Shown here one piece after another: positions 11,813-34,389 of a DNA stretch of 64,000 bases (positions are counted from its first letter, which is position 1; every line of letters begins with the position of its first letter). Origin of the DNA: Sphingobacteriales bacterium 50-39 (lineage in GTDB: Bacteria > Bacteroidota > Bacteroidia > Chitinophagales > Chitinophagaceae). A program made the position numbers and the translations under genes. The stretch spans positions 372,001-436,000 of the forward strand of contig MKTZ01000015.1 of NCBI GenBank assembly GCA_001898505.1, written 5' to 3'. The notes below the pieces were generated by a model. That model ran no database searches, was not told where the DNA came from, and saw only the letters and a list, made by a program, of their open reading frames with translations.

Positions 11813-14263
11813 CTATTTTTTAAGCTTCCCTTCCAGCACCTTAATAAAATAGCCACCTACCACGCTCCGCGCCTGGAACCCTACCTGCTTTGCATCCTCC
11901 GTCTCATGCCAGTCGCTCAACGGCACCCGGGTGGGCGTCTCCGTGGCATACAGGTACACAGGGTCGGTAATGGCTTCAAAGTCATGCTGATTATCCGTCA
12001 ATGTCGCTGTCCACATGATCCAGTCCGACTTGGTGTATCCCTTTCGGCTGTCCAGCGGAAGGCCGTATTTGTTTTGTTTGGTCAGATAGTAAGCTACCTC
12101 CTTGTCATATACTTCTTTTGGAAAAAGCCCCAGCCCCAACAGCTTGTCCCATACCATATTGTATTTCTGGCTCCAGGTGCCTTTTCCGCCAAAAGTGAGC
12201 GAATAATGATCACCGTCATCGGCCATACCCGCCCATTTTGTAGCCATATCCTTTGCCATTGCGCTATATCTATCTGCCGTATCCTTCAGCCCCATCTGAG
12301 CCGCCAGCTGGGCATAGCCGCCCAATGCTACGATGGCCTTGACGGAAAGGTTGGCATTCCGGGCAAGATGCCCCGCGAAGTCATCCGTACATAGCTGATT
12401 GGCCGGGTCAAAACCATTCTTGGCCAGATAGTCGGCCCAGGTGCTCAGTGTCTGCCAATGCTTTTTCGCAAAATCTGCATTGCCCTCTATCTTTCCGATG
12501 GCAGCCGTGAGAATGATCATATTGCCGGACTCTTCCACCGGCATGCCCTCTCCGTATGTCTGACCATTGGCCAGGGGATAGGTACCCAGATCATGCGCCG
12601 CAAAAGGTTTTGTCCATTTGCCGCTCTCGCTGAAATAAAAGACGCCATTCAACATCCCTTTCAGCAGGTCAGGATTATATACAAGGAACAAAGGCGCGGA
12701 AGGATAAGTGACATCCACCGTATTGATGGAGCCGTTGCTGAAGTTCTCCTTGGAAAGGAAAAGGAGCTCGCCCTGCGGGCTCTTCAGCAGCTTGTGCGCC
12801 GCCACGCTTTGACGATAGGTCAGCTCACAAAGCCGGGCATATTTCTCACCACCCGCCTTCAGGGCATCCGAGTACAATTGCTGATTAAAAGATACGCATT
12901 TCTTTATTACATCTCCATAGCCAGTCGAGGCGGCCGCCAGTTCCTTCTCGATGCTGGCTCCCGGCTTATCCCTCCACCAGGCCCGGAGGTCCTGGTGAAA
13001 ATATTGTATGGCATAGATATCATCATAGCCGACAAGGAATACCTGCTCCTTTGCTGCGCCGCCCACCTGTCCAAGGTTGGCTACGGTATTCAGCCAAAGA
13101 TGCTTCCCTTGCTGGCTGGGTGCAGAGCCCGCACCCGCAAAAAAACTGGCGGGCGACACTGCCGTTGAAATAGATTGAGTGATATTTTTTCCAGCCGCGG
13201 CAACATACATATACCCCCAGTCGATACGAAGATCGTCTCCTTTCTTCTTCAACACAGGCTGCTCGATGGTGCCCGCTTTCAGGATGGCAAGACCCTCCGC
13301 CGTATACTTGTCCGCACGGACCGGCTGCGCAGGGGTATTGACGGCGATGTCCGTGGATGCTCCGAAATATACCTGTACGTTGTGTTTGGCGCCATCATTA
13401 GATTGCACGCTCACCGACACATACGATACGGGTCTGGACAATTGATCCAGATCGTTGGGCAGCAGAGGGGATGTAAAGGTCAGCGAAAGGTCTATCTTGC
13501 CACAGTTGAAAGCATATTTTGTCTGTGTCGCCTGGATGGTGACACTTTTCTGTTCAGCCTCTTTCACGGCCACGGCAGTAGGGTCTACTATCTTTTCTAC
13601 AATACCCGCATCGAGCCATGCCCCACCCGCCGTATTGGCGACATGTATGGCCAGCACATTGCTGCCTGTCTTCAAAGCTTCTTTCTTCTCGCCTTCCAGG
13701 GGGATATAGATGAATTTGCCGGTCCATCCCTCGCGCTGATAGATCAACGTTCCATTGAGATATACTTCCACATTGTCGTCATGCTGCAATTTCAGGAACA
13801 ATGGCTGGGAACGGCGTCCTGCAATATTGAAGGTCCTGCGCACCCAGAGGTCTTTCGACTTCCACAGCGTACCTGCCGCACTCTCATTATCGCTAAAAGG
13901 CGCTTTGCCTCTCTTCCAACTGCCGTCGCTAAAGTCCGCGGTTTTCCAGTCCCCGGCAGGGGCCGACTCCGTATACGCCATTTCATATGCCTTCTCATCC
14001 GCCGCGGGGAGTACGGTCTTATACCCCATATCTTCCGCCCCCAGGAATCTATAGGTGAGCCCATCCACTTTCACGATACCCAGCAACGGCTGTTCTGTGC
14101 CGGTCCAGTGTTTGGTGGGTGAGGCGGTAAGACGGTCCGAAGTGGACCAGATACTGAAATAAGGATCATGTGTGATGAGAGGATAAGCCGGGGCGCGGAA
14201 ATCCTGGGCCCTTACCAAAGTGACCATAAAGAACAAGACCGTCAGAATACAAGTTTTTTTCAT
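11813..14263 (-). CDS. Secreted DUF4965/DUF1793 (GtaA-like) hydrolase
   Basis: An 816-residue exported protein. The order is signal peptide, DUF4964 (RAPAYPLITHDPYFSIWSTSDRLT...KHWTGTEQPLLGIVKVDGLTYRFLG), an inserted galactose-binding-like jelly roll at about 95-235 (DFSDGSWKRGKAPF...WVRRTFNI...LQHDDNVEVYLNG), DUF5127, then DUF4965 and DUF1793, an alpha/alpha toroid at about 460-800. Databases often name the family glutaminase A after a fungal enzyme, but in Bacteroidota the members sit in polysaccharide loci and are probably glycosidases; that is inference. The domain set is complete at the usual length. It follows the GH127/GH43 gene by 96 bases on the same strand. Confidence 0.8.
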   Translation of the reverse strand: MKKTCILTVLFFMVTLVRAQDFRAPAYPLITHDPYFSIWSTSDRLTASPTKHWTGTEQPLLGIVKVDGLTYRFLGAEDMGYKTVLPAADEKAYEMAYTESAPAGDWKTADFSDGSWKRGKAPFSDNESAAGTLWKSKDLWVRRTFNIAGRRSQPLFLKLQHDDNVEVYLNGTLIYQREGWTGKFIYIPLEGEKKEALKTGSNVLAIHVANTAGGAWLDAGIVEKIVDPTAVAVKEAEQKSVTIQATQTKYAFNCGKIDLSLTFTSPLLPNDLDQLSRPVSYVSVSVQSNDGAKHNVQVYFGASTDIAVNTPAQPVRADKYTAEGLAILKAGTIEQPVLKKKGDDLRIDWGYMYVAAAGKNITQSISTAVSPASFFAGAGSAPSQQGKHLWLNTVANLGQVGGAAKEQVFLVGYDDIYAIQYFHQDLRAWWRDKPGASIEKELAAASTGYGDVIKKCVSFNQQLYSDALKAGGEKYARLCELTYRQSVAAHKLLKSPQGELLFLSKENFSNGSINTVDVTYPSAPLFLVYNPDLLKGMLNGVFYFSESGKWTKPFAAHDLGTYPLANGQTYGEGMPVEESGNMIILTAAIGKIEGNADFAKKHWQTLSTWADYLAKNGFDPANQLCTDDFAGHLARNANLSVKAIVALGGYAQLAAQMGLKDTADRYSAMAKDMATKWAGMADDGDHYSLTFGGKGTWSQKYNMVWDKLLGLGLFPKEVYDKEVAYYLTKQNKYGLPLDSRKGYTKSDWIMWTATLTDNQHDFEAITDPVYLYATETPTRVPLSDWHETEDAKQVGFQARSVVGGYFIKVLEGKLKK

Positions 14264-17431: not shown

Positions 17432-17454
17432 TTTGACTCCATCGACAATAAAAG

Positions 17455-17474
17455 GGGGCGGGCATCCCCGCCCC
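17455..17474 (-). terminator. GC-rich hairpin in the leader of the GH127/GH43 gene
   Basis: Eight-base-pair perfect stem (GGGGCGGG/CCCGCCCC) with a four-base loop, 24 bases upstream of the start codon. On the minus strand it is followed by a short T-rich run (CTTTTATT), so it could be a weak terminator or an RNA-processing barrier separating the SusCD-DUF3823 genes from the enzyme genes. No termination data can be inferred from sequence alone. Confidence 0.5.
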
Positions 17475-17526
17475 ACTGGCAATTATACGAATTGAACTAC
17501 CTGCCTTACTAAAGTTACTCTAAATT

Positions 17527-18416: not shown

Positions 18417-20348
18417 TTATTGGTTCGGTTGCCGTACCAGCTTGGGATTGGCAGCAATAACATTATCACTGATCTGAGAATAATAGTTCCCGAACAGGAA
18501 TTTATTATAACCGGTGGCCAGTGCAGGCAGCGTCTCCTTGAAGATCCATTTGCCATTGGTGGTGGGATCGGCCGGGTTATACACCTTGTATGGCCACAGT
18601 CCCCAGGGCTGTGTGCTATGCGCATCGGCTACCCCAAGATTGGACTTCACATCTGCCAGGGTCGTAGGAGCGCCGTCCCAAACCTGGTGCGCCAGCCTCC
18701 AGCGTTTCATGTCGAATAGGATATGTCCTTCGAAAGCCAGTTCGATCCTCCGCTCATGTACGATACGGTCGAACGTAATATCCCCCGCCGCCAGCGGTGT
18801 CGTCAATCCGGCACGCGCACGTACCTGGTTCATATATGTGGCGGCATCATCCGGATGTCCCAGCTCGAACGAAGCCTCGGCCGCATTCAGGAGCACCTCG
18901 GCATAGCGGTACCGTATAAAGGCCACCGTGCTACCCTGACCACGTCTGCCGGAACCAGTCGTAGGGTCTAAATATTTACGGATATAGAATCCCGTTTGCG
19001 TCCTCAGCTCCAGGCCATTTACAGGACCATCGATACCTACTACCTGTACGGGTGTGGTCGTTCCAGGCAATGCCTTGGTATGACCGGCCTCATCACTGCT
19101 GAAAAGTGTACCGTCGGCAAGCACATAGCCAGCCCATATATCTACCTTCTTGCCTTTGAACAGACCGTCGGGCAATAATACAGTACCCGCCAGACGTGCA
19201 TCCCTGCCGGCGAATATATCCTGCAGGTTGGTGTAATAGACAGGTTTGTTGCTTCCATCCACTGTCGCCAGCGGAGCAAAGCTATTGTCCAGTTTTTCAT
19301 ATTGTTCTACCAGGTTCAAAGAAGGATCGAGACGCCCGGCATCACCACCCTCATCCGACAGCGAATACGGCTGATCATTTGTCGTAAAGCCATGCGTCTT
19401 ACCACCCGTCTTGAAATCCTCAAAATAGATGGTCTCGATACTGGCCTTGTCCAGGAACAGGTTGGCATAGTTGTCGGAGAGATTGCCGCCATTATTATAC
19501 AGGCCGTAGTTCCCATCCGTACCTGCAATGATCTCCTTGGCCGCATTCAACGCCTTGGTGTAATAACCATTGGCCTTGGATGCATCGATACCTACTTCCC
19601 CTCCGGGCAACGATACGGCCGGAGTGGTGGCGCCATACTTGGCGATAGACGCTGCATACAAGGCAGCCCGGCATTCCATCGCTACGGCAGCAGCTCTGCT
19701 GGCCCTGGACTTGGTAGCCGGATCGGCCGGCAGATCACTCTTGATGGCTTCGGCCTCGCTGATCACAAAATCATAGATATCGGACTCCTTTGCACGGGGG
19801 AACTGGATAGAGCCGATGTCCTTCGTATTCCCAGGCAGGGTCAGCGAATGCGTGATCAGGGGCACACCGCCATATCGCTTCGCCAGCTCGAAATAATACA
19901 TGGCCCTCAGAAAACGACCTTCTGCATAAAATCGCTTCTTGTCTGCATCGGCCAGCTGCGTACTGGCGCTGTCCCGCTCGAGGAAAAGATTCACCTCACG
20001 GATATAGGTGAAGGCAGTACCCCAGTCGATGCCCCACTGGCCATAACCCCAGCCGGTGCGTTGTACGAGAAAGGAGCTTCCGTTCTCGGAGGGGAAGCTT
20101 TCGCTGAAATCCGCAAATGTCCTCCATCCCGCTCCGTCGAGACTGTTACCGTCCAGGCTGGCAAAATCTTCTTGTCTGTTATACAGGTCCGCCAGCACGG
20201 TCAGGACCAGGTTTGGATCGGAAAATACCTGGTCGGTGGTCAAAAAGGTAGTTGGCTTCACATCCAGGAATTCACTATCCTTCTTACAACCTGCCAAACC
20301 AAGGACCAGGGCGGTGGTGATAGTTGTTATCGATAATATCTTTTTCAT
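18417..20348 (-). CDS. SusD/RagB-family glycan-binding lipoprotein (locus 1)
   Basis: A 643-residue surface lipoprotein that caps the SusC channel and binds oligosaccharide. Lipobox GLAGCKK follows a short hydrophobic helix. The hallmark N-terminal SusD segment (FLDVKPTTFLTTDQVFSDPNLVLTVLADLYN), the RFLRAMYYFELAKRYGGVPLI motif with its TPR-like helices, and the C-terminal RYRYAEVLLNAAEASFELG...LAFEGHILFDMKRW pattern are all present. The length is in the longer range for the family. It follows susC by 11 bases and precedes the DUF3823 gene, the standard order of a polysaccharide-utilisation locus. Confidence 0.95.
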   Translation of the reverse strand: MKKILSITTITTALVLGLAGCKKDSEFLDVKPTTFLTTDQVFSDPNLVLTVLADLYNRQEDFASLDGNSLDGAGWRTFADFSESFPSENGSSFLVQRTGWGYGQWGIDWGTAFTYIREVNLFLERDSASTQLADADKKRFYAEGRFLRAMYYFELAKRYGGVPLITHSLTLPGNTKDIGSIQFPRAKESDIYDFVISEAEAIKSDLPADPATKSRASRAAAVAMECRAALYAASIAKYGATTPAVSLPGGEVGIDASKANGYYTKALNAAKEIIAGTDGNYGLYNNGGNLSDNYANLFLDKASIETIYFEDFKTGGKTHGFTTNDQPYSLSDEGGDAGRLDPSLNLVEQYEKLDNSFAPLATVDGSNKPVYYTNLQDIFAGRDARLAGTVLLPDGLFKGKKVDIWAGYVLADGTLFSSDEAGHTKALPGTTTPVQVVGIDGPVNGLELRTQTGFYIRKYLDPTTGSGRRGQGSTVAFIRYRYAEVLLNAAEASFELGHPDDAATYMNQVRARAGLTTPLAAGDITFDRIVHERRIELAFEGHILFDMKRWRLAHQVWDGAPTTLADVKSNLGVADAHSTQPWGLWPYKVYNPADPTTNGKWIFKETLPALATGYNKFLFGNYYSQISDNVIAANPKLVRQPNQ

Positions 20349-20359
20349 TCTGACTTTTT

Positions 20360-23300
20360 TTATAAGGAAAGATTGATACCGACATTGATCACCCTGTTCT
20401 GCGGGAACTGGAGACCATTGTCGTCGATGGTTTCAGGGTCAACATTGTACTTCGCCAGGTTGTCTATCGAGAAGGCATTGTACACATTCGCATAGAGCCT
20501 GCACCGCTGCATCCTGGCCTTTCTTATAATGGACGGAGGAAGCGAATATCCTACTTCTATCGTCCTGGCTCTGAAGGCCGTTACATTGTGCAGCCAGAAA
20601 GTAGACTGTGTCCCATAGTTGCTGTGCGAGGTGCCCACATTGTATCTGTTCGCGGGATATTTACCAGGCACCCAGGGGCTGTTCGGATCAAAGATATCCT
20701 GATGATGCCACCTGTCCTTGAAAATAGCGTTCATGTTGCCATTGTTCTGAAATGCCCAGCGCTGTTCCCAGTTCTGGTACCATGTATAGCCTGATGCACC
20801 GGAGAAGTCGGCATGGAAGTCGACACCCTTGTAGTTGAGGGCAATGCTAAAGCCGAAGTTGACCTGGGGTTGCGAGCCATAATTGTATCCGATGGGACGC
20901 ATATCCAGGCCATCGATCTTCCCGTCCCCATTCACATCCTGATAGATCAGGTCGCCGGGCAGCAGGGTCTTGTTACCAAACCCATCGATGTCCACCTTGT
21001 AGCTGTTGATCTGGGCCTGAGAAGTGAACTGACCGATGCAGATATATCCCCAGCTTTTATTGGTGAACCGGTTTTCCCTTGAGTTATAGTATTGATCCAT
21101 CGAATTATTGAACACAGGGTTATAATCATGCAGCCATTTGTTACGGGTGAAGCTCATGTTGCCGGTGATAGTAAAGCCTACCTGGCGTATCCTTCCGTTA
21201 TAGGTCAATGATCCTTCCGTGCCATATTGCGCATCCGATCTGACATTATACGCCGGTAGGTTATAACCAAGCTCTATTGGTACGACTACATCGTTCTTGC
21301 CTCCGGGAATGCCTGTACGTTTGCGGTAGAACCAGTCGAACGTGCCGGTCAGACGGCCATTCAGGAAGCTAAAGTCCATACCTACGTCCGTAACCTTATC
21401 CTTCATCCAGGATATGGTAGTATAGGGCGCTCCCCTATCGCGGCTGGCAGTAACGGTAGCGCCATTCAGGATCGCCGGGGTCAACAAGCCGCCACCATTG
21501 TCAGTACCGTAGTTATACCCTTGTAAATAGGTGAAATCGGGGAGGATGGGATCGGTGCTGTTCAGCGCCCTGTCATCTCCCAGGATACCATAAGAACCTC
21601 TCAGCTTCAGGTCCGACAATATATGGTAATCGTTATTCAGCAGGTCCTTGAACCAGGATTCCTCGGTAATTTTCCAGCCTGCGGAGAAGCCAGGGAAATA
21701 ACCCACGCGGTAGCCGGGCGCGAACAGATAGGAAGCATCCCTTCTGGCAGAAGCTTCGAAGAAATACTTGTTGGCGTAGCTATAAGTGAAGCGTCCTATA
21801 TAGCCAGTCCTGGTCTGTGTCTGGTCGGCATCTTCGTACCTGTCCATGATTGAAAAGGTCACCAGTGGCAAATAATTGGACTGCGGCGAAGCATGCAGCC
21901 AGTTGCGCAGGTGGTGGTTATTGATCCTCTCCGCCACAACCGTAGCGCCAATGGTGTGTTTGCCGAATGTATTCGAATAGTTGGCTTGCAGCTGAATGTC
22001 CGTATTGATATTCTTGATCTGCTCTCTTTCACGCCAGGGATTCGTACTGCCGCCCGTGACCTTGTACGTATTGTTGCTGTCCACATAGGTATAGGCTTTA
22101 TACGTATACTCCTGGTTGTTCAGCAGGTAGTCGGCAAAATAATAGGAACCCAACGCCCTTACCGATAACCCTTTTATACCCGGAATATCGTAGTCGATGT
22201 GGAAATTCGTCTGGATCACACGCCAGTCGCCGCGCAAATGCCCGGACAGCTTATTGTTCAGGAAGGCGTAGTTGGACTCCAGGTGGGGGCCAAGGTCATT
22301 CAGATACAATGGATTGTCATTGGCATACGGCCTTTCCATCGGCGTATTGCGCAATACAGCCAGGCGAGCCAACCAGTAGTCGTCCCCACCGGGAACACCG
22401 GGGTTCTGCCTGGTCTCCACGCGGCCATTGATATCAAAGCCTACCTTGAGTCCGGTAGACAGTTTCGCTGTCACGTTGGACTGGATATTCGTACGGTTGA
22501 AATTATATTCCTTTCCTAATACAGAGTTCTGATACAGGTTCGTACCCGATACATAATAGTTTACCTTGTCGTTACCACCATTGATATTGACGTTGACGGA
22601 GTTCAGCGGGGCGCCGTTATTGCCCATCACATATTTCCTCCAGTCGAAGCTCCTGTATTGCCCCTGCCCTTTCTTGGCTTCGTCCAGCACTGCCTGTGTC
22701 GTGCTCGTGCTGCCAAACCTGTTCATTTCCGCATCCGCCTTGTAATAGAGATATTCATATGTATTGTTCAATACCTTGGGGAACCTGAAAAAGCTCTGCC
22801 ACCCATTGTAAGCATCCACATTGATAGTGTTCCTGCCGGTGGAGCCTTTTTTTGTCGTTACGACCACGACACCATTACCGGCACGTACCCCGTAAATGGC
22901 TGCGGAACCGTCCTTCAGTACGGTGATGCTCTCCACATCATTAGGCGCCAGGTTGTTGAACTGGCCCTCATCTTGTTGTACACCATCGATCACATACAGC
23001 GCAGGTCCGAAATTACGGATCTGGATACTCGCGCTGGCGCCCGGACGGCCTTCCGCCTGGCGGAATGTGACACCCGGCAGCTTACCGGCCAACGTAGTAC
23101 TTACCGTACTGCCGCCATGCACCCGGTCGATGTCCTTGGATGTCACCGTGGCGATAGCCGCTGTAATGGACTCCTTCCTCTTCGTACCATAACCTACGAC
23201 CACCACGTCCGAGAGGTCGCTGGCATTCCTGGTCATCGATATGGAGATGTCCGTAGAAGTTCCTACCGCCTGCTGAACAGGAGTGTAGCCTACAGAACTA

Positions 23301-23581
23301 AATGCCAATACAGAACCCGTACTGTTCACCTTTATGGTGAACTTACCATTGGCATCTGTAAAAGTTGCATTGTTGGTGCCGTTCTCTGTGACCGTCACCT
23401 GGGCGATGCCCTTTCCGGTGCTGTCTTTTACGGTTCCAGTAACAGTAATCTTGGCCTTACCTTGAGAAAAGACGGGACTCGTAAAAATTACAAGAAGGAG
23501 GCAACTGAGTAGCAACCTTCCTTTTTTGAGGGTCCCGGGGGGGAAGAATTCGCGCAGAAAATACCTACGAGGGAATTTCAT
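20360..23581 (-). CDS. SusC/RagA TonB-linked outer membrane transporter (locus 1)
   Basis: A 1,073-residue TonB-dependent importer for oligosaccharides. A signal peptide with a long basic n-region (MKFPRRYFLREFF...) precedes cleavage near VFSQ. A carboxypeptidase-regulatory-like domain spans about residues 45-125 (TVTGTVKDSTGKGIAQVTV), followed by the SusC signature VVVVGYGTKRKESITAAI, a plug (ALYVIDGVQQDE...ESITVLKDGSAAIYGVRAGNGVVVVTTKKG) and a 22-strand-type barrel ending INLSL. First gene of the minus-strand operon. The 174-base gap to the divergent sensor kinase contains a LacI-type palindrome, so both the kinase pair and the LacI protein may control it. Confidence 0.95.
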   Translation of the reverse strand: MKFPRRYFLREFFPPGTLKKGRLLLSCLLLVIFTSPVFSQGKAKITVTGTVKDSTGKGIAQVTVTENGTNNATFTDANGKFTIKVNSTGSVLAFSSVGYTPVQQAVGTSTDISISMTRNASDLSDVVVVGYGTKRKESITAAIATVTSKDIDRVHGGSTVSTTLAGKLPGVTFRQAEGRPGASASIQIRNFGPALYVIDGVQQDEGQFNNLAPNDVESITVLKDGSAAIYGVRAGNGVVVVTTKKGSTGRNTINVDAYNGWQSFFRFPKVLNNTYEYLYYKADAEMNRFGSTSTTQAVLDEAKKGQGQYRSFDWRKYVMGNNGAPLNSVNVNINGGNDKVNYYVSGTNLYQNSVLGKEYNFNRTNIQSNVTAKLSTGLKVGFDINGRVETRQNPGVPGGDDYWLARLAVLRNTPMERPYANDNPLYLNDLGPHLESNYAFLNNKLSGHLRGDWRVIQTNFHIDYDIPGIKGLSVRALGSYYFADYLLNNQEYTYKAYTYVDSNNTYKVTGGSTNPWREREQIKNINTDIQLQANYSNTFGKHTIGATVVAERINNHHLRNWLHASPQSNYLPLVTFSIMDRYEDADQTQTRTGYIGRFTYSYANKYFFEASARRDASYLFAPGYRVGYFPGFSAGWKITEESWFKDLLNNDYHILSDLKLRGSYGILGDDRALNSTDPILPDFTYLQGYNYGTDNGGGLLTPAILNGATVTASRDRGAPYTTISWMKDKVTDVGMDFSFLNGRLTGTFDWFYRKRTGIPGGKNDVVVPIELGYNLPAYNVRSDAQYGTEGSLTYNGRIRQVGFTITGNMSFTRNKWLHDYNPVFNNSMDQYYNSRENRFTNKSWGYICIGQFTSQAQINSYKVDIDGFGNKTLLPGDLIYQDVNGDGKIDGLDMRPIGYNYGSQPQVNFGFSIALNYKGVDFHADFSGASGYTWYQNWEQRWAFQNNGNMNAIFKDRWHHQDIFDPNSPWVPGKYPANRYNVGTSHSNYGTQSTFWLHNVTAFRARTIEVGYSLPPSIIRKARMQRCRLYANVYNAFSIDNLAKYNVDPETIDDNGLQFPQNRVINVGINLSL

Positions 23582-23755: not shown

Positions 23756-26700
23756 ATGTTACATTCGAAATACATCCCCATATCAACCCTTCTGGTCATT
23801 ATCTGCCTCTGCAGGGCAACGGCACAACCCTACTACTTCAGGCATTTCCAGGTAGAGAACGGTCTCTCCAACAGCACGGTCTTCTGCACTACACAGGATA
23901 AAAATGGCTTTCTCTGGTTCGGCACAAAAGCAGGGCTCAACAGATTTGACGGGTACCATTTCAAGCTGTTCACGCATACGGGCAGCGAGGGCTCCATGGG
24001 CAGCGACATGGTCTACTGCCTCTTCAGCGATCACAATGGCACGCTCTGGTCGGGCGGGCAGAACGGCCTCTTCAGATTCGACCAGGAAAAGGAGAAACTG
24101 GTCCGGGTCATCGACTCGCTGGTAGAGATCAACTGGATACAGACGGACGATAAGGGCAATCTCTGGTTCCTCTGTCTCAACAATGTCTACCGGTATAATC
24201 TTACCACCCGACAGCTCAAACACTTCCCCGAAACAAAATATTTTTATGCCACCTGCATCTGCAAGACGGAGAAAGGCGGGATTTGGTTCTGCGACAACAA
24301 CGGTCGTATATGGAGATACAATGAAGATACGGAAGACTTCACCTCTTTCGACATGTTCTCCCACTCTCGTACGCCAACGTCCCGCTGGATGCAGCGTATA
24401 CACTATGCAGGTAATAACCTCTTCCTCATCGCCACCAACGACCAGGGATTGAAGAGCTTTGACGCCACCACGGGACAGTACAAGGATATACTCACCTACA
24501 ATCCCGACGGGTCTACCATTTATGTCCGGGATATATTGCAGTACTCTGCCGACGAATTCTGGGTGGCGACCGAGTCGGGCATATACATTATCAATACCAA
24601 TACGGGCAAGGTCACCAACATCCGAAAGAAATTCCTCGATCCCTACTCCCTTTCCGACAATGCCGTCTATTCCCTTTGTAAGGATTCCGAGGGGGGTGTA
24701 TGGGCTGGCACCTACTTTGGAGGCGTCAACTATTACTCGAAGACCATCTTCGAAAAGTGCTATCCGGACAACAGTTCCAGTTCCATCAGCGGCAGCGCCG
24801 TCCGCGAGATATGCCAGGACCCCTATAATAATATATGGATAGGCACCGAGGACGCCGGGCTGAATAAGCTCGATAGCAAGACTGGCTTCATCAGGCATTT
24901 TATGCCATCCGGCTCCCCAAAAGATATCGCCTATACCAATATACATGGGCTCCTCTCCACCGGCAATGAATTGTGGGTCGGCACTTTCGAACACGGACTG
25001 GACGTCATGGATGTAAGAACGGGTAAGGTCATACGTCATTATAATGCGGGGCCACGCCCGGGCGATCTGAAAAGCAATTTCGTCCTCACCCTCACAAGGA
25101 CCTCCACGGGCAAAATAGTGCTGGGCTCTTCGGTGGGCGCGTACTGGTACAACGAAAAGACCAATGACTTCACTCCCCTGGCCGGCATCCCGCTCAATAT
25201 TTTTGTCGCCATTATAATGGAGGACCATGATGGCGTGCTCTGGCTGGGCACCCACAACGCCGGCGTTTTTTATCTGGATCCCAGGACAGGACGCACAGGC
25301 CATCTCGAAGGGAATGCCACCGACGGCAAAGGGCTCTCCTCCCCCATCATCAATGCCATCGCAGAGGACAACGACCATAATATATGGTTCTCCACCGAAG
25401 GGGGAGGGCTCTGTAGGCTGGGCCCCGACAGAAAGACATTCTTCTCTTTCACTACGGCCAACGGAATGCCCACCAACTTCATTTTTAGACTCATACAGGA
25501 CAATAACAACAACTATTGGGTGACCACCTCCAAGGGACTGGTCAATATCCATAAAGACAGCTCTACTATCAATATATATACCAGGGCCAACGGCCTGCTC
25601 AACGATCAGTTCAATTATAACTCGGGATTCAAGGACAAGGACGGACGGCTCTATTTCGGCAGTGTGAGGGGCATGATCACCTTTCATCCCAATGACCTGA
25701 TCACCCCTGACTTCGAGCCTGCCATTTATATCACGGGCTTCCAGGTCGACAATGTCGAGCTGAAGATCAACCCTGACAGCTCACCACTGAAAAAGTCGAT
25801 CCTCTATACGGACAAGATCACCCTCCCCTATGACCAGTCCTCCTTCAGCATCGACTTCGCCGCGCTGAGCTATGCCTCGCCTGAAAGGACGGAATACAGC
25901 TATTTCATGCAGGGCCTCGACAAAACATGGACCCGTATCCCGACCAATCGGAAAGCTTATTTTACCAAGCTCGCCCCCGGTCGCTATACCTTTATGCTAA
26001 AAGCAGCGGTAGGCGGCCACTGGGGTCACCAGGTCAAGGAACTGGCCGTAGAAGTCCTTCCCCCCTTCTGGGCCACCACCTGGGCCTATCTGTTATATGC
26101 CCTGCTGCTCATTTTCCTCGTCTGGTACATCGTCCGCAGCTACCACCGGCGTACGGAAATCAAAAAGGAAAAAGAAATATACGAGGCTAAGATCGACTTC
26201 TTCACCAACATCGCTCATGAAATTCGCACTCCGCTGACCTTGATAAAAGGTCCCGCGGAGAATTTAAAAGAAAAAATAGAAGAGCTGCCGGAGATAAAAG
26301 AGGACGTCATCACCATGGAGCGCAATACCAATCGGCTGATCGCCCTCGTCACACAGATCCTGGATTTCCGGCAGACGGAGACCAAGGGGTTCAGCCTCGA
26401 CTTCTCCCGGGTCAATATTACAGCCGTGCTACAGGAGACCTGGCTCAGCTTCCAGGCCCTGGCTAAAAAGAAGAACCTTCACTATCATTTCGAACATCCT
26501 GTGTCGGACGTCTATGCCATGGCCGATGAAGAAGCGCTCAACAAGATATTCAGCAACCTATTCAGCAATGCAGTAAAATATGGGCACGAACAGATCCATG
26601 TCAGGCTGCTCCCCCCGCGGTCGGAAGAGGCGGATATTGTCATCGAGATTGCCAACGACGGCCCCATCATACCCGCGGAAATGAAAGAACGTATATTCGA

Positions 26701-26857
26701 GCCTTTTTACAGACTCAAGGAAACCATGCGGCAAAAAGGCACCGGCATCGGACTTGCCCTGGCCCGCTCGCTGGTGGAGCTGCATAAAGGACAGCTTTTC
26801 CTGGACGATAATTGGCCGGGCATGAATAAATTTGTGCTTGTTTTGCCCAACCCATAA
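23756..26857 (+). CDS. Propeller-type sensor histidine kinase (sensor half of a split HTCS)
   Basis: A 1,033-residue inner-membrane kinase. After a signal peptide (IISTLLVI-type core, cleavage near ATAQ) there are Reg_prop beta-propeller repeats to about residue 680 (NGLSNSTVFCTTQDKNGFLWFGTKAGLNRFDGY and repeats), a Y_Y_Y domain at about 690-765, one membrane helix at about 772-795, then HisKA with His821 (FFTNIAHEIRTPL), the N-box NKIFSNLFSNAVKYG and the G-box GTGIGLALARSLVE. It ends there: the receiver and AraC domains usual in hybrid two-component systems are encoded by the next gene, in the same frame after TAA and TGA stops. Divergent from susC, so it probably senses the oligosaccharide in the periplasm and controls the operon. 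Confidence 0.92.
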   Translation: MLHSKYIPISTLLVIICLCRATAQPYYFRHFQVENGLSNSTVFCTTQDKNGFLWFGTKAGLNRFDGYHFKLFTHTGSEGSMGSDMVYCLFSDHNGTLWSGGQNGLFRFDQEKEKLVRVIDSLVEINWIQTDDKGNLWFLCLNNVYRYNLTTRQLKHFPETKYFYATCICKTEKGGIWFCDNNGRIWRYNEDTEDFTSFDMFSHSRTPTSRWMQRIHYAGNNLFLIATNDQGLKSFDATTGQYKDILTYNPDGSTIYVRDILQYSADEFWVATESGIYIINTNTGKVTNIRKKFLDPYSLSDNAVYSLCKDSEGGVWAGTYFGGVNYYSKTIFEKCYPDNSSSSISGSAVREICQDPYNNIWIGTEDAGLNKLDSKTGFIRHFMPSGSPKDIAYTNIHGLLSTGNELWVGTFEHGLDVMDVRTGKVIRHYNAGPRPGDLKSNFVLTLTRTSTGKIVLGSSVGAYWYNEKTNDFTPLAGIPLNIFVAIIMEDHDGVLWLGTHNAGVFYLDPRTGRTGHLEGNATDGKGLSSPIINAIAEDNDHNIWFSTEGGGLCRLGPDRKTFFSFTTANGMPTNFIFRLIQDNNNNYWVTTSKGLVNIHKDSSTINIYTRANGLLNDQFNYNSGFKDKDGRLYFGSVRGMITFHPNDLITPDFEPAIYITGFQVDNVELKINPDSSPLKKSILYTDKITLPYDQSSFSIDFAALSYASPERTEYSYFMQGLDKTWTRIPTNRKAYFTKLAPGRYTFMLKAAVGGHWGHQVKELAVEVLPPFWATTWAYLLYALLLIFLVWYIVRSYHRRTEIKKEKEIYEAKIDFFTNIAHEIRTPLTLIKGPAENLKEKIEELPEIKEDVITMERNTNRLIALVTQILDFRQTETKGFSLDFSRVNITAVLQETWLSFQALAKKKNLHYHFEHPVSDVYAMADEEALNKIFSNLFSNAVKYGHEQIHVRLLPPRSEEADIVIEIANDGPIIPAEMKERIFEPFYRLKETMRQKGTGIGLALARSLVELHKGQLFLDDNWPGMNKFVLVLPNP

Positions 26858-26869
26858 AATTGAACCCTT

Positions 26870-27637
26870 ATGTTGCCATTGATCTTATTAGTCGACGATG
26901 AAGAGGAGATACTGGAGTTCCTGGAGCGAATACTCAACAGCCGTTACTCCATCCTGAAAGCAGCCAACGGAAAAGAGGCCCTGCAGGTGCTGGAAGCCGA
27001 AGCCGTGCAGCTGGTGGTGAGTGATGTCATGATGCCCGGGATGGATGGATTCGAGTTGTGCAGGGTCATCAAGTCTACCGTGGACCATTCCCATATCCCG
27101 GTCATCCTTCTCACTGCCAAAAATACCATCCAGTCCAAAGTGGAAGGGCTCGAGCTGGGAGCCGACGCCTATATTGAAAAGCCATTCTCAAAAGAGCATC
27201 TTTTGGCCCAGATCTCCAGCCTCCTGAAAAATCGCAATATGGTGCGGGAATTCTTTGCCTCCTCACCCCTGGTACATATCAAAAGTATGGCCCACACACG
27301 CAGTGACGAGAAATTCCTGGAAACGCTTCATGATACCATCATGAAAAATATGGATGACGTAGACCTGGATGTGGAGAAACTGGCAAAGATCATGATGATG
27401 AGCCGTATCACCCTGTACCGAAAAATAAAGGCCCTCTCCGACCTATCCCCCATCGAGATCATCAATATCTCCCGCCTCAAAAGGGCGGCCGAGCTGCTGG
27501 CCAGCGGCGAACACCGCATCTATGAGATATCCGACATGGTAGGGTTCAGCTCCCAAAGCAACTTTGCCCGCAATTTTCAAAAACAGTTCAACATGACGCC
27601 TACGGAGTATATGCACTCCAAACAGCAAACGCCATAG
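26870..27637 (+). CDS. Response regulator, receiver plus AraC-type DNA-binding domain
   Basis: A 255-residue regulator, the output half of the split system. Receiver residues: acidic pair in VDDEEE (9-13), phospho-acceptor Asp52 (VVSDVMMPGMDG), Thr83 (LLTAKN), Lys104 (EKPF). The AraC helix-turn-helix pair spans about 150-250 (DLDVEKLAKIMMMSRITLYRKIKALSDLSPIEII...ISDMVGFSSQSNFARNFQKQFNMTPTEY). It starts 12 bases after the kinase stop and in the same frame. All phosphorelay residues are intact, so the pair should work as a normal two-component system. Likely target: the divergent susC promoter. Confidence 0.92.
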   Translation: MLPLILLVDDEEEILEFLERILNSRYSILKAANGKEALQVLEAEAVQLVVSDVMMPGMDGFELCRVIKSTVDHSHIPVILLTAKNTIQSKVEGLELGADAYIEKPFSKEHLLAQISSLLKNRNMVREFFASSPLVHIKSMAHTRSDEKFLETLHDTIMKNMDDVDLDVEKLAKIMMMSRITLYRKIKALSDLSPIEIINISRLKRAAELLASGEHRIYEISDMVGFSSQSNFARNFQKQFNMTPTEYMHSKQQTP

Positions 27638-28398: not shown

Positions 28399-30657
28399 TC
28401 AAGGATGCATCCTGGCGGCCACGAACTCCCCTATCTTCCGCCCCTCCTCCAATCCATACGCAATGGCCGGTTTGAAATGTATCCCGCCGTAGAATCGGCT
28501 GATAGCTGCCTCTTCCGCAGCATGTTGAAAGGACGTAAACGACCTCGGCGGCAGCCCAAACTCCACCTCCGTCGAGTCCGCAAAGGCAAAATGCTCCCCG
28601 AACAGCCGGGTCAGCACCACGGCCGCACAGGCGGACACAACGCTATGTCCGCTGGTATACTCCGGGAACGGCGGTGTTTGTAACAACGGCATCCAATCCT
28701 GGCTGATATACTGGTTGATATAGGTCTCCGGCCGGATGGCGTTGCTCCGGTACTTCTCATCCCAGCAGCTGATAAAAGCGTCCGCGATGACGACAGAGAC
28801 CCAGGCATACGCCTGCAGGCTCCGCACCACATCCGAGCCAGCCTTCTGACAGGCCACGGACGTAATATTGATCCAATGCCCGCCGGGCGAGATCTTCTTC
28901 GTAGCAAACATCAAATGGCCATTCACATTCATCTTAAAAGGATTGCAATCCCAGAAATTCGCGATCCATCGCTGTTCTTCCGTCAGCTGAAGACCCGCCT
29001 CATACACCTCCATCGCATCCTTGTAAAAAGGGCTCCCCTTCTCTTGCGAAAAAGGAGTGGGAGGATGAGGTATGAACTGCCGCGCGGAGTCGATGACAAA
29101 GGTCCGCATCTTGCTCCAGTGGGGTTCCACCGCCTTCATATACGCGGGAGGAGTAGGTTTCCAGGTTGCCGCGTCGTTCCCCGGATCATATTTTGCCAGC
29201 GCCCTTGTCTCTTTGTAATGGTCCTTCCCGGCCCAGGCCAGGACATGCGCCGCCACCTTGTCCCCATATTCCACGGAGTTGGTATATACATCTGCCGGCA
29301 GGATGGCCTTCCTATCCGCCAGCAGCCGCACCCGGAAATCTTCTATCTGATCTTCCGAGATCACCAGGGTCTTGCCTACTTTAAGCACGGCCTCCACGGC
29401 AGACAGGGAAAAATCATATTTCTTTCCCGCCTCAGGCGCCGGCACGGCGTCCAACGCGTGCAACGTGCCCGCAAAAGAAGCAAAGGCGGTATTACCCTGA
29501 CGGGCTGCTTCATAGCCGGCCACCGTCATATATGCATAAATGCGGCTGGCTACAGGGGGAGAAAAAATATCGTGTACCATCACATCCGTCACTTCCTTGA
29601 TGCTCCGGTGGATCAGTTGCGGATCATCTGCCCGCAGCGACTGGCCCTCGAGGTCAGGCAGCCAAAAATCAAACGGTTCATCTCTTACGGCCACCAGTGT
29701 CCCGTCTTTGTACACGAGCTCGGCCACCTGTATCGAGCTTCGCTTCTCAGAATAAGGGTAGTCGCCGTCCTTATCCAGGGTGGCTTCACCATGCGTCTTT
29801 CTGCCCGGATGTGTAAAATAAAAAATATAGCTCTTATCTCCCACTACCACGACATCCGCATGCGCCCCCGTGGGTGAATCGTCAGGTCGCACGCCATTCT
29901 TATCCAGCACCAGTCCCTGTTTCTCCCAGGTGATGGCGTCCTTACTGCGATACACCCGCTGACCATGCCATTCATCCGTGATCATCCAATACCAGCCGGA
30001 GAACTGGAATATCTTTGGTCCCTCATGCGGCGCTCCGCCAATAGCGGGTTTTTCAGCCGACCGCCAATGTACAAGATCACCGCTCTCCGCTGTCATAGTG
30101 ATGCTGTGATAGTCGTCTTTATACCATACATGCCATTTCCCATCCGGCAGCTTTAGGAAGGTCGGGTCGATGACATTGTCCGATATAAGTTTTAATGAGT
30201 CCTTAAAGGTCCAGTTCCAAAGGTCTTTGCTGGTAAAATGAACGATGTGCGCCTTGCCGCCCCAATTGTTGCGCACACCTCTTATATAGGCGACAAACAT
30301 ATGGTAAATTCCCTCATCGAAAAAAATGTCGGGAGCCCAGAAGGTATTCACCCCTTCTTCGAACTCCAGCTTCGGGGCGCCATGATATGACCAGGACTGC
30401 CCGTGATCATCCGTCACCGCCACTCCAATATTGGTCCCATAGCAAAAGGCGACACCCGCAGACTGGACATTGGCCCGGCGCTGTGTATAGAACATCCACC
30501 ATTGTTTTTTTTCTCTGTTGTAGACCACTACCGGATCGGCAGCACCATCGTAGATGGGATCGCGAAAAAGGGGGGCGGGGGCTTTGTGTATTTGCTGGGC
30601 GTGCCCTCCTGTTTGCAGCAGGGTCAAAAGGAGGAGAGCGATGACAAGCTTCTTCAT
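28399..30657 (-). CDS. GH43-like hydrolase fused to vanadium haloperoxidase/PAP2 domain
   Basis: A 752-residue exported protein (signal peptide ending GGHAQ). Residues about 28-335 form a five-bladed propeller with GH43/GH-F-like catalytic positions: D41 (GAADPVVV), WAPD (107-110), D164 (VIDPTF), E212 (HEGPKIF). Residues about 350-750 are a vanadium-dependent haloperoxidase-like domain of the PAP2 superfamily. It starts at the typical ISPPVASRIYAY-like segment (FSPPVASRIYAY) and holds all vanadate ligands in correct spacing: K635 and R642, S669-G670-H671, R721 and H727. The frame is unbroken across the joint, so this is a real fusion. The PAP2 domain could be a haloperoxidase or a phosphatase. 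A LacI-type palindrome abuts the start codon. The divergent gene encodes an FG-GAP/UnbV protein, a common neighbour of these peroxidases. Confidence 0.85.
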   Translation of the reverse strand: MKKLVIALLLLTLLQTGGHAQQIHKAPAPLFRDPIYDGAADPVVVYNREKKQWWMFYTQRRANVQSAGVAFCYGTNIGVAVTDDHGQSWSYHGAPKLEFEEGVNTFWAPDIFFDEGIYHMFVAYIRGVRNNWGGKAHIVHFTSKDLWNWTFKDSLKLISDNVIDPTFLKLPDGKWHVWYKDDYHSITMTAESGDLVHWRSAEKPAIGGAPHEGPKIFQFSGWYWMITDEWHGQRVYRSKDAITWEKQGLVLDKNGVRPDDSPTGAHADVVVVGDKSYIFYFTHPGRKTHGEATLDKDGDYPYSEKRSSIQVAELVYKDGTLVAVRDEPFDFWLPDLEGQSLRADDPQLIHRSIKEVTDVMVHDIFSPPVASRIYAYMTVAGYEAARQGNTAFASFAGTLHALDAVPAPEAGKKYDFSLSAVEAVLKVGKTLVISEDQIEDFRVRLLADRKAILPADVYTNSVEYGDKVAAHVLAWAGKDHYKETRALAKYDPGNDAATWKPTPPAYMKAVEPHWSKMRTFVIDSARQFIPHPPTPFSQEKGSPFYKDAMEVYEAGLQLTEEQRWIANFWDCNPFKMNVNGHLMFATKKISPGGHWINITSVACQKAGSDVVRSLQAYAWVSVVIADAFISCWDEKYRSNAIRPETYINQYISQDWMPLLQTPPFPEYTSGHSVVSACAAVVLTRLFGEHFAFADSTEVEFGLPPRSFTSFQHAAEEAAISRFYGGIHFKPAIAYGLEEGRKIGEFVAARMHP

Positions 30658-30816: not shown

Positions 30817-33800
30817 ATGAAATCCCGCCTCCTTTTACGGCCGTTTGCATTAATTTTTGCATTGCTTGCCTTTACGGCCTCGGCCTGGTCCCAACCCAAA
30901 GCGGCGGCGCAGAACAAGACCCTCTTCCAATTGCTTCCTCCTGCCCGCACAGGGATCAACTTTACCAACAAGATCTTCGAGAGCGACTCTTTAAATATTC
31001 TCAACCAGGCCAATATCTACAATGGCGGCGGTGTCGGGATCGGGGACTTCAACCACGATGGACTACAGGACATCTTTTTATCGGGAAATATGGTTTCCAG
31101 CAAGCTGTACCTGAACAAAGGCCATATGAAGTTCGAGGACATCACCGACCGGGCCGGCGTGACGGGAGACGGCAGATGGTGCACCGGTGTCTCCGTCGTC
31201 GATGTCAATGGAGATGGCTGGCTGGATATCTATGTATCCGCCAGCTTCCGAAAAGATGCCCGTCTGCGGACCAATCTGCTTTATATCAACCAGGGTGTAG
31301 ACAAAAACGGCATCCCCACATTCAAGGAGTCCGCGGTGGCCTATGGCATTGCGGACACGGGCTTTAGCACACAAGGCATATTCTTCGACTACGACCACGA
31401 TGGCGACCTGGATCTGTATATTGTGACAAACCAGATCAACGACCCCAGGACCCCTATCCGGTTCCGACCCAAACTGACGGATGGCAGCGCATTGAACAAC
31501 GACAGGCTCTATCGCAACAACGGCAACGGCACTTTTACCAATGTCACCAAAGAGGCGGGTATACTGATAGAAGGATGGGGCCATGCAGGGTGTATCTCCG
31601 ACTTCAACGGGGATGGCTGGCTCGATATATATATCGCCGACGATTTCGTGTCCAATGACCTGCTCTATATCAACAATCGTGATGGAACATTTACCGACAG
31701 ACTCGGAGAGTATTTTCATCACACGGGCTGGAACGCCATGGGTACGGATGTAGTGGACATCAACAACGATGGACTGCCCGATATCGTCTCGATGGAAATG
31801 CTTCCCGAGAACAACCTTCGTAAAAAGAGAATGCTGGCCGGCAACGAATATTACAACTATTTCAACAGCCAGCGCTTCGGCTATACGCACCAGTATATTC
31901 GAAATGTGCTGCAGCTCAACAGGGGTATGTCGCCGGATGGCCATCCCGTCTTTAGCGAAGTGGGGTTCATGGCAGGCATCTACGAGACAGATTGGAGCTG
32001 GTGCCCGCTCGTTGCGGACTTCGACAATGACGGCTTTCGCGATCTGGTGGTTACCAACGGTCTCCCCCGTGACGTCACCGATCTCGACTATGTTGCTTAC
32101 AATAGTGGACAGGGAGGTTTTGGACATTATGATCTCAAGATGGTAGACTCCCTCCCGATCGTGCGGTTGCCGGGTTATTCGTTCAAGAACAACGGCGGCT
32201 TTACATTCACCAATACCAGTACCGATTGGGGTTTTACGCATCCCAGTTTCTCCAATGGGGGCGCTTATGCGGACCTGGATAATGACGGCGACCTGGACCT
32301 GGTGATCAACAATATCAACGAGCCCGCCTTTGTTTATGAGAATACGCTGAACACGCCGGGACGTCCTGCAAAAAGTCATTGGCTGAGCGCGAGCTTCACC
32401 GGCGTAGGACAGAACCTCGACGGCATCGGATCCTCCATGCGTGTATATTACGATCACGGGAAGCAACAGTTTTATGAACACCAGCCCTGCCGTGGCTATA
32501 TGTCTACCGATGATTACCGCGCGCATTTTGGGCTGGGTGGCGTAACACATATCGACAGCATACGGGTACGCTGGCCGGATGGCAGGACACAGCTGCTAAA
32601 GGATGTCTCCGTGGACCAGAACATTACCGTGTCTTATCGTGATGCCGCGGGTTATATTGCACCCTACGATTATCATGCATCCTCGCCGCTGTTCAGGAAC
32701 GTAGCAGACAATTATGGTATTCACTTCAAGCCCCAGGAGAAGGACGTCATCGACTACAATATCCAGCCTGCGCTCCCTCACAAGCTGAGCCAGTATGGGC
32801 CTGGTATTGCCGTGGGTGATGTAGACAAGAATGGATATGAGGATTTTTATATCGGGGGTGCTGCGGGTCATAAAGGCATGTTCTTTATGCAGGATGAGAA
32901 AGGGAATTTCACCATCGACAGCACCCGCCTGCCGCTGGATGAAGGCCATCCCGGCGAGGATATGGGCGTACTGTTCTTCGATGCGGATGGTGACGGGGAC
33001 CTCGACCTTTATGTGGTCAGCGGCAGCTACGAGCTGGCGCCCGGTAGCCCCGCCAGTCAGGATATACTGTATTTCAATGACGGACAGGGCAGGTTTACGC
33101 CTCACTACGATGCGCTGCCAAAAATGTTCTCCAATGGCAGCTGTGTCCGGGCCGCCGACTTCGACGGGGACGGGGACCTCGACCTTTTTGTGGCGGGGCG
33201 CGTGACCTCTGGCGCCTATCCTACCCCGCCGCAGTCCTATCTGTTGGAGAACCACTCCGGCAGTTTTTTCGACGTGACAAAAAGATGGTGTCCCGAGCTG
33301 CAGAACATCGGCATGGTCACCGATGCTCTTTGGTCCGACTTTGACGGGGATGGCAAACCCGACCTCGTGCTCACAGGTGAGTGGATGGCTCCTACCTTTC
33401 TGAAGAACACCGGTAAGGGTCTCGTCAATATCAGCGACTCCACGGGCATTGCCAGTCACAAAGGCTGGTGGAACAGCCTGGTGGCGGGAGATTTTGACAA
33501 TGATGGCGACATCGATTATATAGCCGGCAATCTGGGACTTAACTCCAATTATAAGGGCACGCCTGCCGAGCCGATGGTGGTTTATGCAAAGGACCTGGAT
33601 GATAATGGGCTGTTGGACGCCATGGTATTCTGCTATATGCGGGCGGAAGACGGCGCCCGCAAGCTCTTCCCCATGACGGCACGTGATGATATGGCCAGCC
33701 AGATGATCTCTATGCGTAAACGCTACCCTAGTTATAAGTCTTATGGACTGGCCACCATCGATGATCTTTGGAAACCAAAAGATCGGGAAAATGCCCTTAT

Positions 33801-34389
33801 GTTCCAGGCTACGGATATGACTAGCAGTTATATCGAGAATCTGGGTAATGGGAAGTTTGCTATACACGCGCTGCCTGCCGAGGCGCAGATAGCGCCAGTC
33901 TACGGAATGGATGCCGTCGACATCGACGGTGATGGCGATCTCGACCTGCTGATGGTGGGTAATGATTATGGTATGGAACCCTATAGCGGGCGGCATGACG
34001 CCTTTATGGGTCTTTATATGAAGGGCGATGGCCGGGGCGGCTTTACGCCGTGGCCCCTGCCCGCCAGCGGCTTCTATGCAAAAGGGGACGCCAAAGGCCT
34101 GGCCCGGCTGCACACCGCGCGTAATGAGGACATCTGGGTCGCTACGCAGAACCAGGACAGCCTTGTTACGATGCATCTGGCGGCCCCGCCGGTACGCAAG
34201 TGGATCGATCTACAGCCCGGGGATTTTTCCATCGATGTCTTTTATGTCGATGGGCAGAAGAGACATATGGAGGCATACTATGGCTCTACATATCTCTCGC
34301 AGTCTTCGAGAAAAATCCCGGTGAATGGAAATGTAAAAAACGTAGTGATCACGGATTTCAGGGGGAATAAAAGGGAAGTTATGCCTTGA
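30817..34389 (+). CDS. Large FG-GAP/VCBS-repeat protein with UnbV/ASPIC domain
   Basis: A 1,190-residue exported protein (signal peptide ending ASAWSQ). It carries at least a dozen calcium-binding FG-GAP loops of the form DxDxDGxxD (DFNHDGLQDI, DVNGDGWLDIYV, DYDHDGDLDLYI, DFDNDGFRDLV, DADGDGDLDLYV, DIDGDGDLDLLM and others), forming two integrin-like beta propellers. Between them, at about residues 520-610, is an ASPIC/UnbV segment (NLDGIGSSMRVYYDHGKQQFYEHQPCRGY...SIRVRWPDGRTQLL). Such CRTAC1-like proteins are surface or periplasmic in Bacteroidota and often lie beside SusCD and vanadium haloperoxidase genes; the function is unknown. Divergent from the GH43-haloperoxidase gene. Confidence 0.88.
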   Translation: MKSRLLLRPFALIFALLAFTASAWSQPKAAAQNKTLFQLLPPARTGINFTNKIFESDSLNILNQANIYNGGGVGIGDFNHDGLQDIFLSGNMVSSKLYLNKGHMKFEDITDRAGVTGDGRWCTGVSVVDVNGDGWLDIYVSASFRKDARLRTNLLYINQGVDKNGIPTFKESAVAYGIADTGFSTQGIFFDYDHDGDLDLYIVTNQINDPRTPIRFRPKLTDGSALNNDRLYRNNGNGTFTNVTKEAGILIEGWGHAGCISDFNGDGWLDIYIADDFVSNDLLYINNRDGTFTDRLGEYFHHTGWNAMGTDVVDINNDGLPDIVSMEMLPENNLRKKRMLAGNEYYNYFNSQRFGYTHQYIRNVLQLNRGMSPDGHPVFSEVGFMAGIYETDWSWCPLVADFDNDGFRDLVVTNGLPRDVTDLDYVAYNSGQGGFGHYDLKMVDSLPIVRLPGYSFKNNGGFTFTNTSTDWGFTHPSFSNGGAYADLDNDGDLDLVINNINEPAFVYENTLNTPGRPAKSHWLSASFTGVGQNLDGIGSSMRVYYDHGKQQFYEHQPCRGYMSTDDYRAHFGLGGVTHIDSIRVRWPDGRTQLLKDVSVDQNITVSYRDAAGYIAPYDYHASSPLFRNVADNYGIHFKPQEKDVIDYNIQPALPHKLSQYGPGIAVGDVDKNGYEDFYIGGAAGHKGMFFMQDEKGNFTIDSTRLPLDEGHPGEDMGVLFFDADGDGDLDLYVVSGSYELAPGSPASQDILYFNDGQGRFTPHYDALPKMFSNGSCVRAADFDGDGDLDLFVAGRVTSGAYPTPPQSYLLENHSGSFFDVTKRWCPELQNIGMVTDALWSDFDGDGKPDLVLTGEWMAPTFLKNTGKGLVNISDSTGIASHKGWWNSLVAGDFDNDGDIDYIAGNLGLNSNYKGTPAEPMVVYAKDLDDNGLLDAMVFCYMRAEDGARKLFPMTARDDMASQMISMRKRYPSYKSYGLATIDDLWKPKDRENALMFQATDMTSSYIENLGNGKFAIHALPAEAQIAPVYGMDAVDIDGDGDLDLLMVGNDYGMEPYSGRHDAFMGLYMKGDGRGGFTPWPLPASGFYAKGDAKGLARLHTARNEDIWVATQNQDSLVTMHLAAPPVRKWIDLQPGDFSIDVFYVDGQKRHMEAYYGSTYLSQSSRKIPVNGNVKNVVITDFRGNKREVMP

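Follow-up and report, generated by a model that had tools for sequence, protein, structure and literature searches.

The window, by which we mean the whole stretch of 64,000 nucleotides analysed here, contains at 28399-30657 an open frame of 752 codons, read on the minus strand (30657 to 28399), in which a GH159 domain is followed by a vanadium haloperoxidase domain (Table 1). The plus strand across the same interval is interrupted by stops. A preliminary description of this DNA had reported one unbroken 752-residue frame, which is borne out with minus as the coding strand, and every residue it singled out (D41, D164, E212, K635, R642, S669-G670-H671, R721 and H727) stands at the position it named; the fusion frame is confirmed as a real observation. 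Beside the fusion we found the elements by which a PUL is recognized, i.e., a SusC/SusD pair, a GH127-GH43 protein, a sensor kinase and a regulator.

Table 1. Features of the window around the fusion gene, in order of position.
Feature	Positions	Strand	Basis
GtaA_6_Hairpin/DUF5127/DUF4964 protein of the PUL	11813..14263	-	
GH127 + GH43 two-domain arabinofuranosidase-type PUL protein, 1040 aa	14360..17482	-	Pfam, PDB matches
SusD-type glycan-binding protein of the PUL	18417..20348	-	
SusC-type TonB-dependent receptor of the PUL	20360..23581	-	
Sensor histidine kinase with Reg_prop/Y_Y_Y sensor region	23756..26857	+	Pfam
Response regulator with AraC-type HTH	26870..27637	+	Pfam
NCBIfam NF046077 protein (M949_RS01915 family), 238 aa	27665..28381	+	NCBIfam
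Fusion gene, 752 aa: GH159 domain + vanadium haloperoxidase (Zobellia type)	28399..30657	-	open frame, Pfam, PDB sequence matches
Vanadium haloperoxidase domain, residues 346-751; K635, R642, S669-G670-H671, R721, H727	28405..29622	-	phmmer to 4cit, 6.3e-141
Junction/linker, residues 337-345 (EGQSLRADD)	29623..29649	-	comparison with separate GH159 C-termini and P0002
GH159 domain, residues 25-336; catalytic D41, D164, E212	29650..30585	-	phmmer to 7zei (Ch_Gaf159A), 2.5e-93
Probable N-terminal export signal, residues 1-21, MKKLVIALLLLTLLQTGGHAQ	30595..30657	-	translation by eye: basic start, hydrophobic stretch, AQ end
FG-GAP/ASPIC-UnbV protein, divergent neighbour	30817..34389	+	Pfam

The first half of the protein matches the Pfam GH43 model (PF04616, residues 103-284) with 39.1 bits against a cut-off of 32.2, and it had been described as GH43-like. 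The comparison with PDB nevertheless favours another name: the best solved relative found by phmmer is Ch_Gaf159A (7zei, its residues 3-310 aligned) at an E-value of 2.5e-93, whereas the best chain named GH43 reaches only 0.015. Residues D19, D142 and E190 of Ch_Gaf159A align with D41, D164 and E212 of the fusion; mutation has shown all three to be essential, according to the part of the published account available to us (PMC9278983). Because Ch_Gaf159A is matched over its full length and the essential residues are conserved, the first half is, by sequence, a GH159 domain, related to GH43 and within reach of its Pfam model. What stands of the earlier wording is a GH43-like propeller hydrolase, while GH43 as the family name was set aside. 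In the same portion of that account, Ch_Gaf159A is a five-bladed propeller whose pocket accounts for its exo-activity, it acts more strongly on pNP-beta-D-galactofuranoside than on pNP-alpha-L-arabinofuranoside, its catalytic geometry is common to GH159 and GH43, and its authors propose an intracellular role (PMC9278983). The whole domain aligns with its catalytic triad kept, and a five-bladed propeller is expected in the fusion as well. Unlike Ch_Gaf159A, a single-domain chain of 318 residues, the GH159 of the fusion is probably exported and carries a haloperoxidase behind it.

The second half matches PF01569 (PAP2) at residues 624-730 (31.6 bits, cut-off 27.2), and it aligns over 406 residues with residues 38-448 of the 458-residue chain of 4cit/4usz (E 6.3e-141); the next haloperoxidases in PDB follow at 1.5e-4 and 0.002. 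The 4cit chain is presumably the Zobellia galactanivorans iodoperoxidase of Fournier 2014, a work whose title reportedly names the Zobellia enzyme an iodoperoxidase. Seven residues, which we take to be the vanadate site (K, R, S-G-H, R and H), are identical to those of 4cit at the same spacing in a stretch that aligns gap-free, and W632 and F664 beside them are also common to both proteins. Unlike the fusion, 4cit stands alone without a GH159 module, and its NPY is NPF in the fusion. The spacings had previously been read as those of vanadium chloroperoxidase. The K-to-R (7) and R-to-H (6) distances do fit the fungal enzyme, whereas R-to-SGH (27) and SGH-to-R (50) seem too short beside the roughly 42 and 86 of fungal VCPO, which we set aside as a model; no chain named chloroperoxidase is present among the 9 PDB sequences found at E 0.1 with the fusion as query. 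The alignment does show a complete vanadium haloperoxidase half, as had been claimed, with its site intact and of the Zobellia type. From the nearest relative we infer, by analogy, a preference for iodide. To our knowledge, no role outside the sea is established for Zobellia-type haloperoxidases.

Neither half departs from its relatives at any near-invariant column, defined as one kept in at least 97% of the 120 closest rows (0 of 79 columns for GH159 and 0 of 127 for the haloperoxidase). This indicates only an absence of decay, and it is expected, since the rows are close.

The junction can be read against proteins that are still separate. Directly before their stop codons, separate GH159s end in FDFWLPDL (L020), FDFWLPDM (L019), FDFWLP (L045), FDFYLP (L124) and FDFWLPDLKE (L015), and the fusion reads across the junction FDFWLPDL-E-GQSLRADDPQLIH (FDFWLPDL-E-GQSLRADDPQL at the join itself). 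P0002, a stand-alone haloperoxidase 86% identical to that of the fusion, reads MKKTFIILLLSFFLGGVIQGQSLRADDPQLIH, where GGVIQ-GQSLRADDPQL places the beginning of the mature part at the same GQSLRADD that is seen in the fusion linker. On these comparisons, the fusion appears to be a complete GH159 minus its stop codon followed by a mature haloperoxidase minus its signal peptide, joined at the end of the former signal peptide with no part of either mature enzyme apparently lost, and we infer that a deletion would lie behind the join. At third codon positions, GC is 0.592 for the first half and 0.671 for the second, against 0.595 to 0.682 across seven neighbouring genes, which puts the first half at the low edge. 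A CTCGAG hexamer (XhoI site, Leu-Glu) is located at about 29650, exactly at the GH159 end, and we take it as chance because the gene sits in a locus layout common to relatives.

A protein search with the whole fusion returned at least 1691 matches among the 8000 candidates scored. The 120 matches listed are proteins of 420-489 aa whose alignments extend over no more than 58% of the query, corresponding to the haloperoxidase alone. Among proteins about as long as the fusion, a search with its GH159 part gave 500 matches, the best 120 of which were listed. A haloperoxidase HMM matched 0 of these 120 long GH159 proteins and a GH159 HMM matched 0 of the 120 listed haloperoxidase proteins, with both HMMs finding the fusion and 120/120 of their own kind as positive controls. 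Other multi-domain GH159s exist: P0121-P0123 have an apparent second propeller, P0148 has GtaA-type Pfam domains and P0125 an extra C-terminal part. All of them, like the fusion, join GH159 to another module, and in none of the 120 listed of 500 is the added module a haloperoxidase.

Genome searches, in which the window's own genome is always counted, gave the same picture. Haloperoxidase matches occur in 32 of 39 genomes of relatives, and a match spanning both halves occurs only in the window's own. GH159 was detected in 2/33 genomes of the window's genus, 55/394 of its family (weak matches included) and 13/395 of its phylum, and haloperoxidase in 210 of the 394 sampled family genomes, where the frames listed, that of the window excepted, have 430-513 codons. 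Among the best 80 of 107 confirmed stretches from the genome collection, 73 hold a haloperoxidase, with a longest frame of 507 codons. No haloperoxidase lies beside the long GH159 frames of G236 (772 aa) and G662 (1040 aa, the frame being cut by the stretch) in the stretches examined; the phylum genomes added two more long frames, of 526 and 605 aa, with weak partial GH159 matches. GH159 and haloperoxidase were found in one chain nowhere else among the matches listed, and the fusion is therefore known from one assembly. The assertion that the two folds are normally separate proteins holds among the matches listed in both the protein and the genome searches.

The open-licence PMC literature yielded no fusion of a haloperoxidase to a glycoside hydrolase or to a galactofuranosidase, which agrees with the earlier statement that no characterised example of the architecture is known. 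The same literature yielded no link of haloperoxidases with SusC/SusD, with polysaccharide and Chitinophaga, or with UnbV; for PULs and haloperoxidases together it gave papers on seaweed-associated bacteria. The domain architecture is a new one, built of two domains from known families and seen in one assembly only.

The two genes also occur close together without being fused. Both occur in the stretch examined at eight loci, seven of which (L015, L018, L019, L020, L028, L038 and L045) belong to the best 80 stretches, the eighth (L124) coming from a search of GH159 regions; L125, L126 and L134 represent the same genomes as L045, L018 and L038, respectively. At five loci, all from related Chitinophagaceae-type bacteria, GH159 lies directly upstream of the haloperoxidase on the same strand, and 75 (L015), 406 (L019), 405 (L020, Ferruginibacter), 50 (L045, CHIT2 MAG) and 26 bp (L124, G416) separate its stop from the first ATG in the following frame; L019 and L020 are closely related to each other. 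These pairs encode the same two proteins as the fusion in the same order on one strand, but as two genes 26-406 bp apart, each with its own apparent signal peptide. In L045 and L124 the pair adjoins a regulator, a sensor and SusC, as beside the fusion, and the window and L045 have in common the order ASPIC, GH159-haloperoxidase, regulator-sensor, SusC-SusD, unfused in L045 and without the gene at 27665-28381. The order of the pair is reversed in L038 and in L018, the latter with about 2 kb between the genes, and in L028 GtaA and ASPIC genes lie between them.

The pairing was also counted from the side of GH159. We took 20 family GH159 regions, namely the 19 best foreign places of 61 listed plus the long frame of G236. 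A haloperoxidase is present in four of them (L124, L125, L126 and L134) and absent from the stretch examined in the other 16, although one of these, G104, has a same-strand haloperoxidase 10.8 kb off, a little beyond the stretch. Rough arithmetic (20 stretches of about 17 kb, 4-10 haloperoxidase genes per 5 Mb) puts the chance expectation at 0.3-0.7. Because the two genes are adjacent in several relatives, a functional link independent of the fusion is supported, and the notion of a lone curiosity without context is ruled out. Five PUL-like loci (L051, L052, L057, L130 and L131) hold SusC/SusD and GH159 with no haloperoxidase in the stretch examined, and most of them also have GH127-43.

The halves of the fusion were placed in separate trees. 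In the GH159 tree (45 chosen rows: the fusion, 35 loci and 9 proteins), the fusion forms a group with P0241 and P0242 (100/100), nested in a 15-row clade (99/98), starred in the tree, that contains all five directly paired GH159s. The other nine rows of this clade are proteins considered without genomic context, two of which have zero distance to L124 and L019; the GH159s of L124 and of P0256, a Flavihumibacter petaseus protein, are at zero distance. Sister to the clade are seven Pedobacter and Hufsiella loci with no haloperoxidase in the stretch examined. The GH159s of L018, L028 and L038 fall outside the clade and elsewhere in the tree, which indicates either several origins of the adjacency or rearrangement. 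The haloperoxidase tree (43 chosen rows) joins the fusion to the stand-alone P0001 (100/95) and then to P0002, in a wider group that includes L016 and L017, and the five paired loci are not united in a single group there.

The haloperoxidase half accordingly groups with relatives from the window's genus and near it, and the GH159 half with paired GH159s of other genera. The two nearest loci for which DNA is at hand, L016 and L017, have the ASPIC protein, haloperoxidase, regulator, sensor, SusC and SusD, with no GH159 there; none was found in the rest of their genomes either, a weak result from a genome search without a positive control. L017 belongs to Flavitalea sp. BT771; the genome G002, from the window's genus, encodes its protein P0012. 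Given the differing groupings of the halves and the rarity of GH159 in the genus, GH159 was either gained here or lost in L016 and L017. A young fusion is the best reading of these relationships.

The neighbours of the fusion recur to different extents. A homologue of the response regulator lies near the haloperoxidase in L015, L016, L017, L018, L045 and L124. At 33 of 73 loci, mostly ones without GH159, a homologue of the ASPIC protein is located no more than 4 kb from the haloperoxidase, and seven GH159-only loci showed no such homologue. In 32 of these 33 loci the haloperoxidase is 58-80% identical to that of the window (52% in L069); the other loci with haloperoxidases at 49-53% identity showed no ASPIC homologue at 150 bits, some of the stretches being short.

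Two further proteins of the PUL deserve a mention. The protein at 14360-17482 (minus strand), with its GH127 and GH43 catalytic domains, is a second two-enzyme chain in the PUL and has matching regions in related PULs. The 354-aa protein at 10085-11149 (minus strand) recurs near GH159 in many related loci and may be an unnamed PUL enzyme; it has no Pfam or NCBIfam match, and PDB gave only a marginal match to an uncharacterised protein.

Carriers of beta-linked L-arabinofuranose include extensin, arabinogalactan proteins, arabinan and RG-II, and GH127 beta-L-arabinofuranosidase is mentioned in the same context, in the available part of one source (PMC10850190). By analogy with these carriers, an arabinofuranose- or galactofuranose-rich wall glycoconjugate is a likely target.

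We hypothesize that two neighbouring genes of one PUL were recently fused in frame. A single export signal would carry both domains to the periplasm or outside, where GH159 would remove a terminal furanose (beta-D-Galf or alpha-L-Araf) from a SusCD-handled glycan, and the vanadium domain, supplied with H2O2, would oxidise a halide, most likely iodide and possibly bromide, near the place of glycan processing. The main effect of joining would be to bring both activities to one place in equal amounts. Judging from the sequence comparisons, we consider it fairly probable that a recent fusion of a PUL gene pair gave a real exported enzyme of two activities, whose main gain is co-location. Weighing against this reading are the occurrence in one assembly, the unfused state of the pair elsewhere, the lack of GH159 at the locus in L016 and L017, the different arrangement of the two genes in L018, L028 and L038 (with GH159s from outside the clade) and the 16 of 20 family GH159 regions with no haloperoxidase in the stretch examined.

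A neutral origin is the foremost alternative, although we regard it as rather unlikely: a short in-frame deletion between adjacent PUL genes would leave both halves working as before, and the join itself would bring nothing. The single assembly among the matches listed is consistent with it, as are the five loci that keep the pair unfused and the fact that, set against these relatives, a stop codon, a spacer and a signal peptide are all that is missing at the join. However, since the genes are repeatedly adjacent in relatives, the two activities probably belong together, and decay is seen in neither half, though both points fall short of proving an advantage from the join itself.

Stronger versions of a two-activity enzyme are more doubtful still. 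One, already suggested in the preliminary description, is a true coupling of both activities on one substrate, which overlaps with the reading of co-location; the oxidised halide could then act on the same glycoconjugate. A second, which we hold just as tentatively, is that haloperoxidases are working members of some furanose-targeting Chitinophagaceae PULs and oxidise the aglycone of the GH159 and GH127/GH43 substrate, steps that the fusion would couple; this aglycone could, for instance, be a phenolic compound or a wall glycoprotein rich in tyrosine, like extensin. Within the favoured reading, the oxidation may instead clear away peroxide, together with phenolic or halogenated defence compounds introduced by plant or fungal material. 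Zobellia vIPO3, a vanadium iodoperoxidase, is upregulated on a brown alga relative to alginate, and its authors set this in the context of algal halogenated defences in the section of their paper available to us (PMC9296495). By analogy, a similar defence against peroxide and phenolics from plants or fungi and a direct action on the glycan are equally plausible.

It is quite improbable that the vanadium-site half is mainly an acid phosphatase of the PAP2 kind, with the fusion removing a sugar and a phosphate. The PAP2 Pfam match would agree with this, and apo-haloperoxidases have weak phosphatase activity, but by far the nearest solved relative, over 406 residues, is a vanadium-dependent haloperoxidase, and the informative names among the 120 listed relatives are all "vanadium-dependent haloperoxidase", one "PAP2 superfamily" excepted, with the reservation that most of the 120 are unnamed or hypothetical and that names are not tests. 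The least credible explanation is that the stretch between two separate genes was lost through an error of assembly or sequencing, a possibility that the preliminary description had tied to a fusion seen in one assembly only: the fusion is indeed in no second genome or protein record among the matches listed, but the error would have had to run in frame from just before a stop to just after the next signal peptide, the genome is in 27 contigs (completeness 100, contamination 1.67), over 33 kb separates the gene from each contig end, and inspection of the junction by eye reveals nothing odd except the CTCGAG hexamer.

Together, the fusion and the recurring gene pair tie one branch of haloperoxidases to a specific glycan-degradation locus, which points to substrates. 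As its sequence is read here, the fusion would be a ready-made two-site enzyme, combining an exo-furanosidase with halide oxidation.

Our searches also returned vanadium-type proteins of other build. Five VCPO_2nd/PAP2-type proteins of 669-1298 aa (L186-L190) come from other families of the order, and a glycosidase domain is present in none of the five. L186, L189 and L190 have T9SS tails (with MopE-like repeats in L186 and fn3 in L190), and L187 and L188 are without a tail. In at least three genomes of the window's genus, two haloperoxidase-like frames are located about 3 kb apart (G000 C12:125705-130542, G002 C17:326093-330995 and G007 C32:294948-299790), a more distant one of 519-582 codons and another of 445-457 codons. 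The window's own genome contains six haloperoxidase matches.
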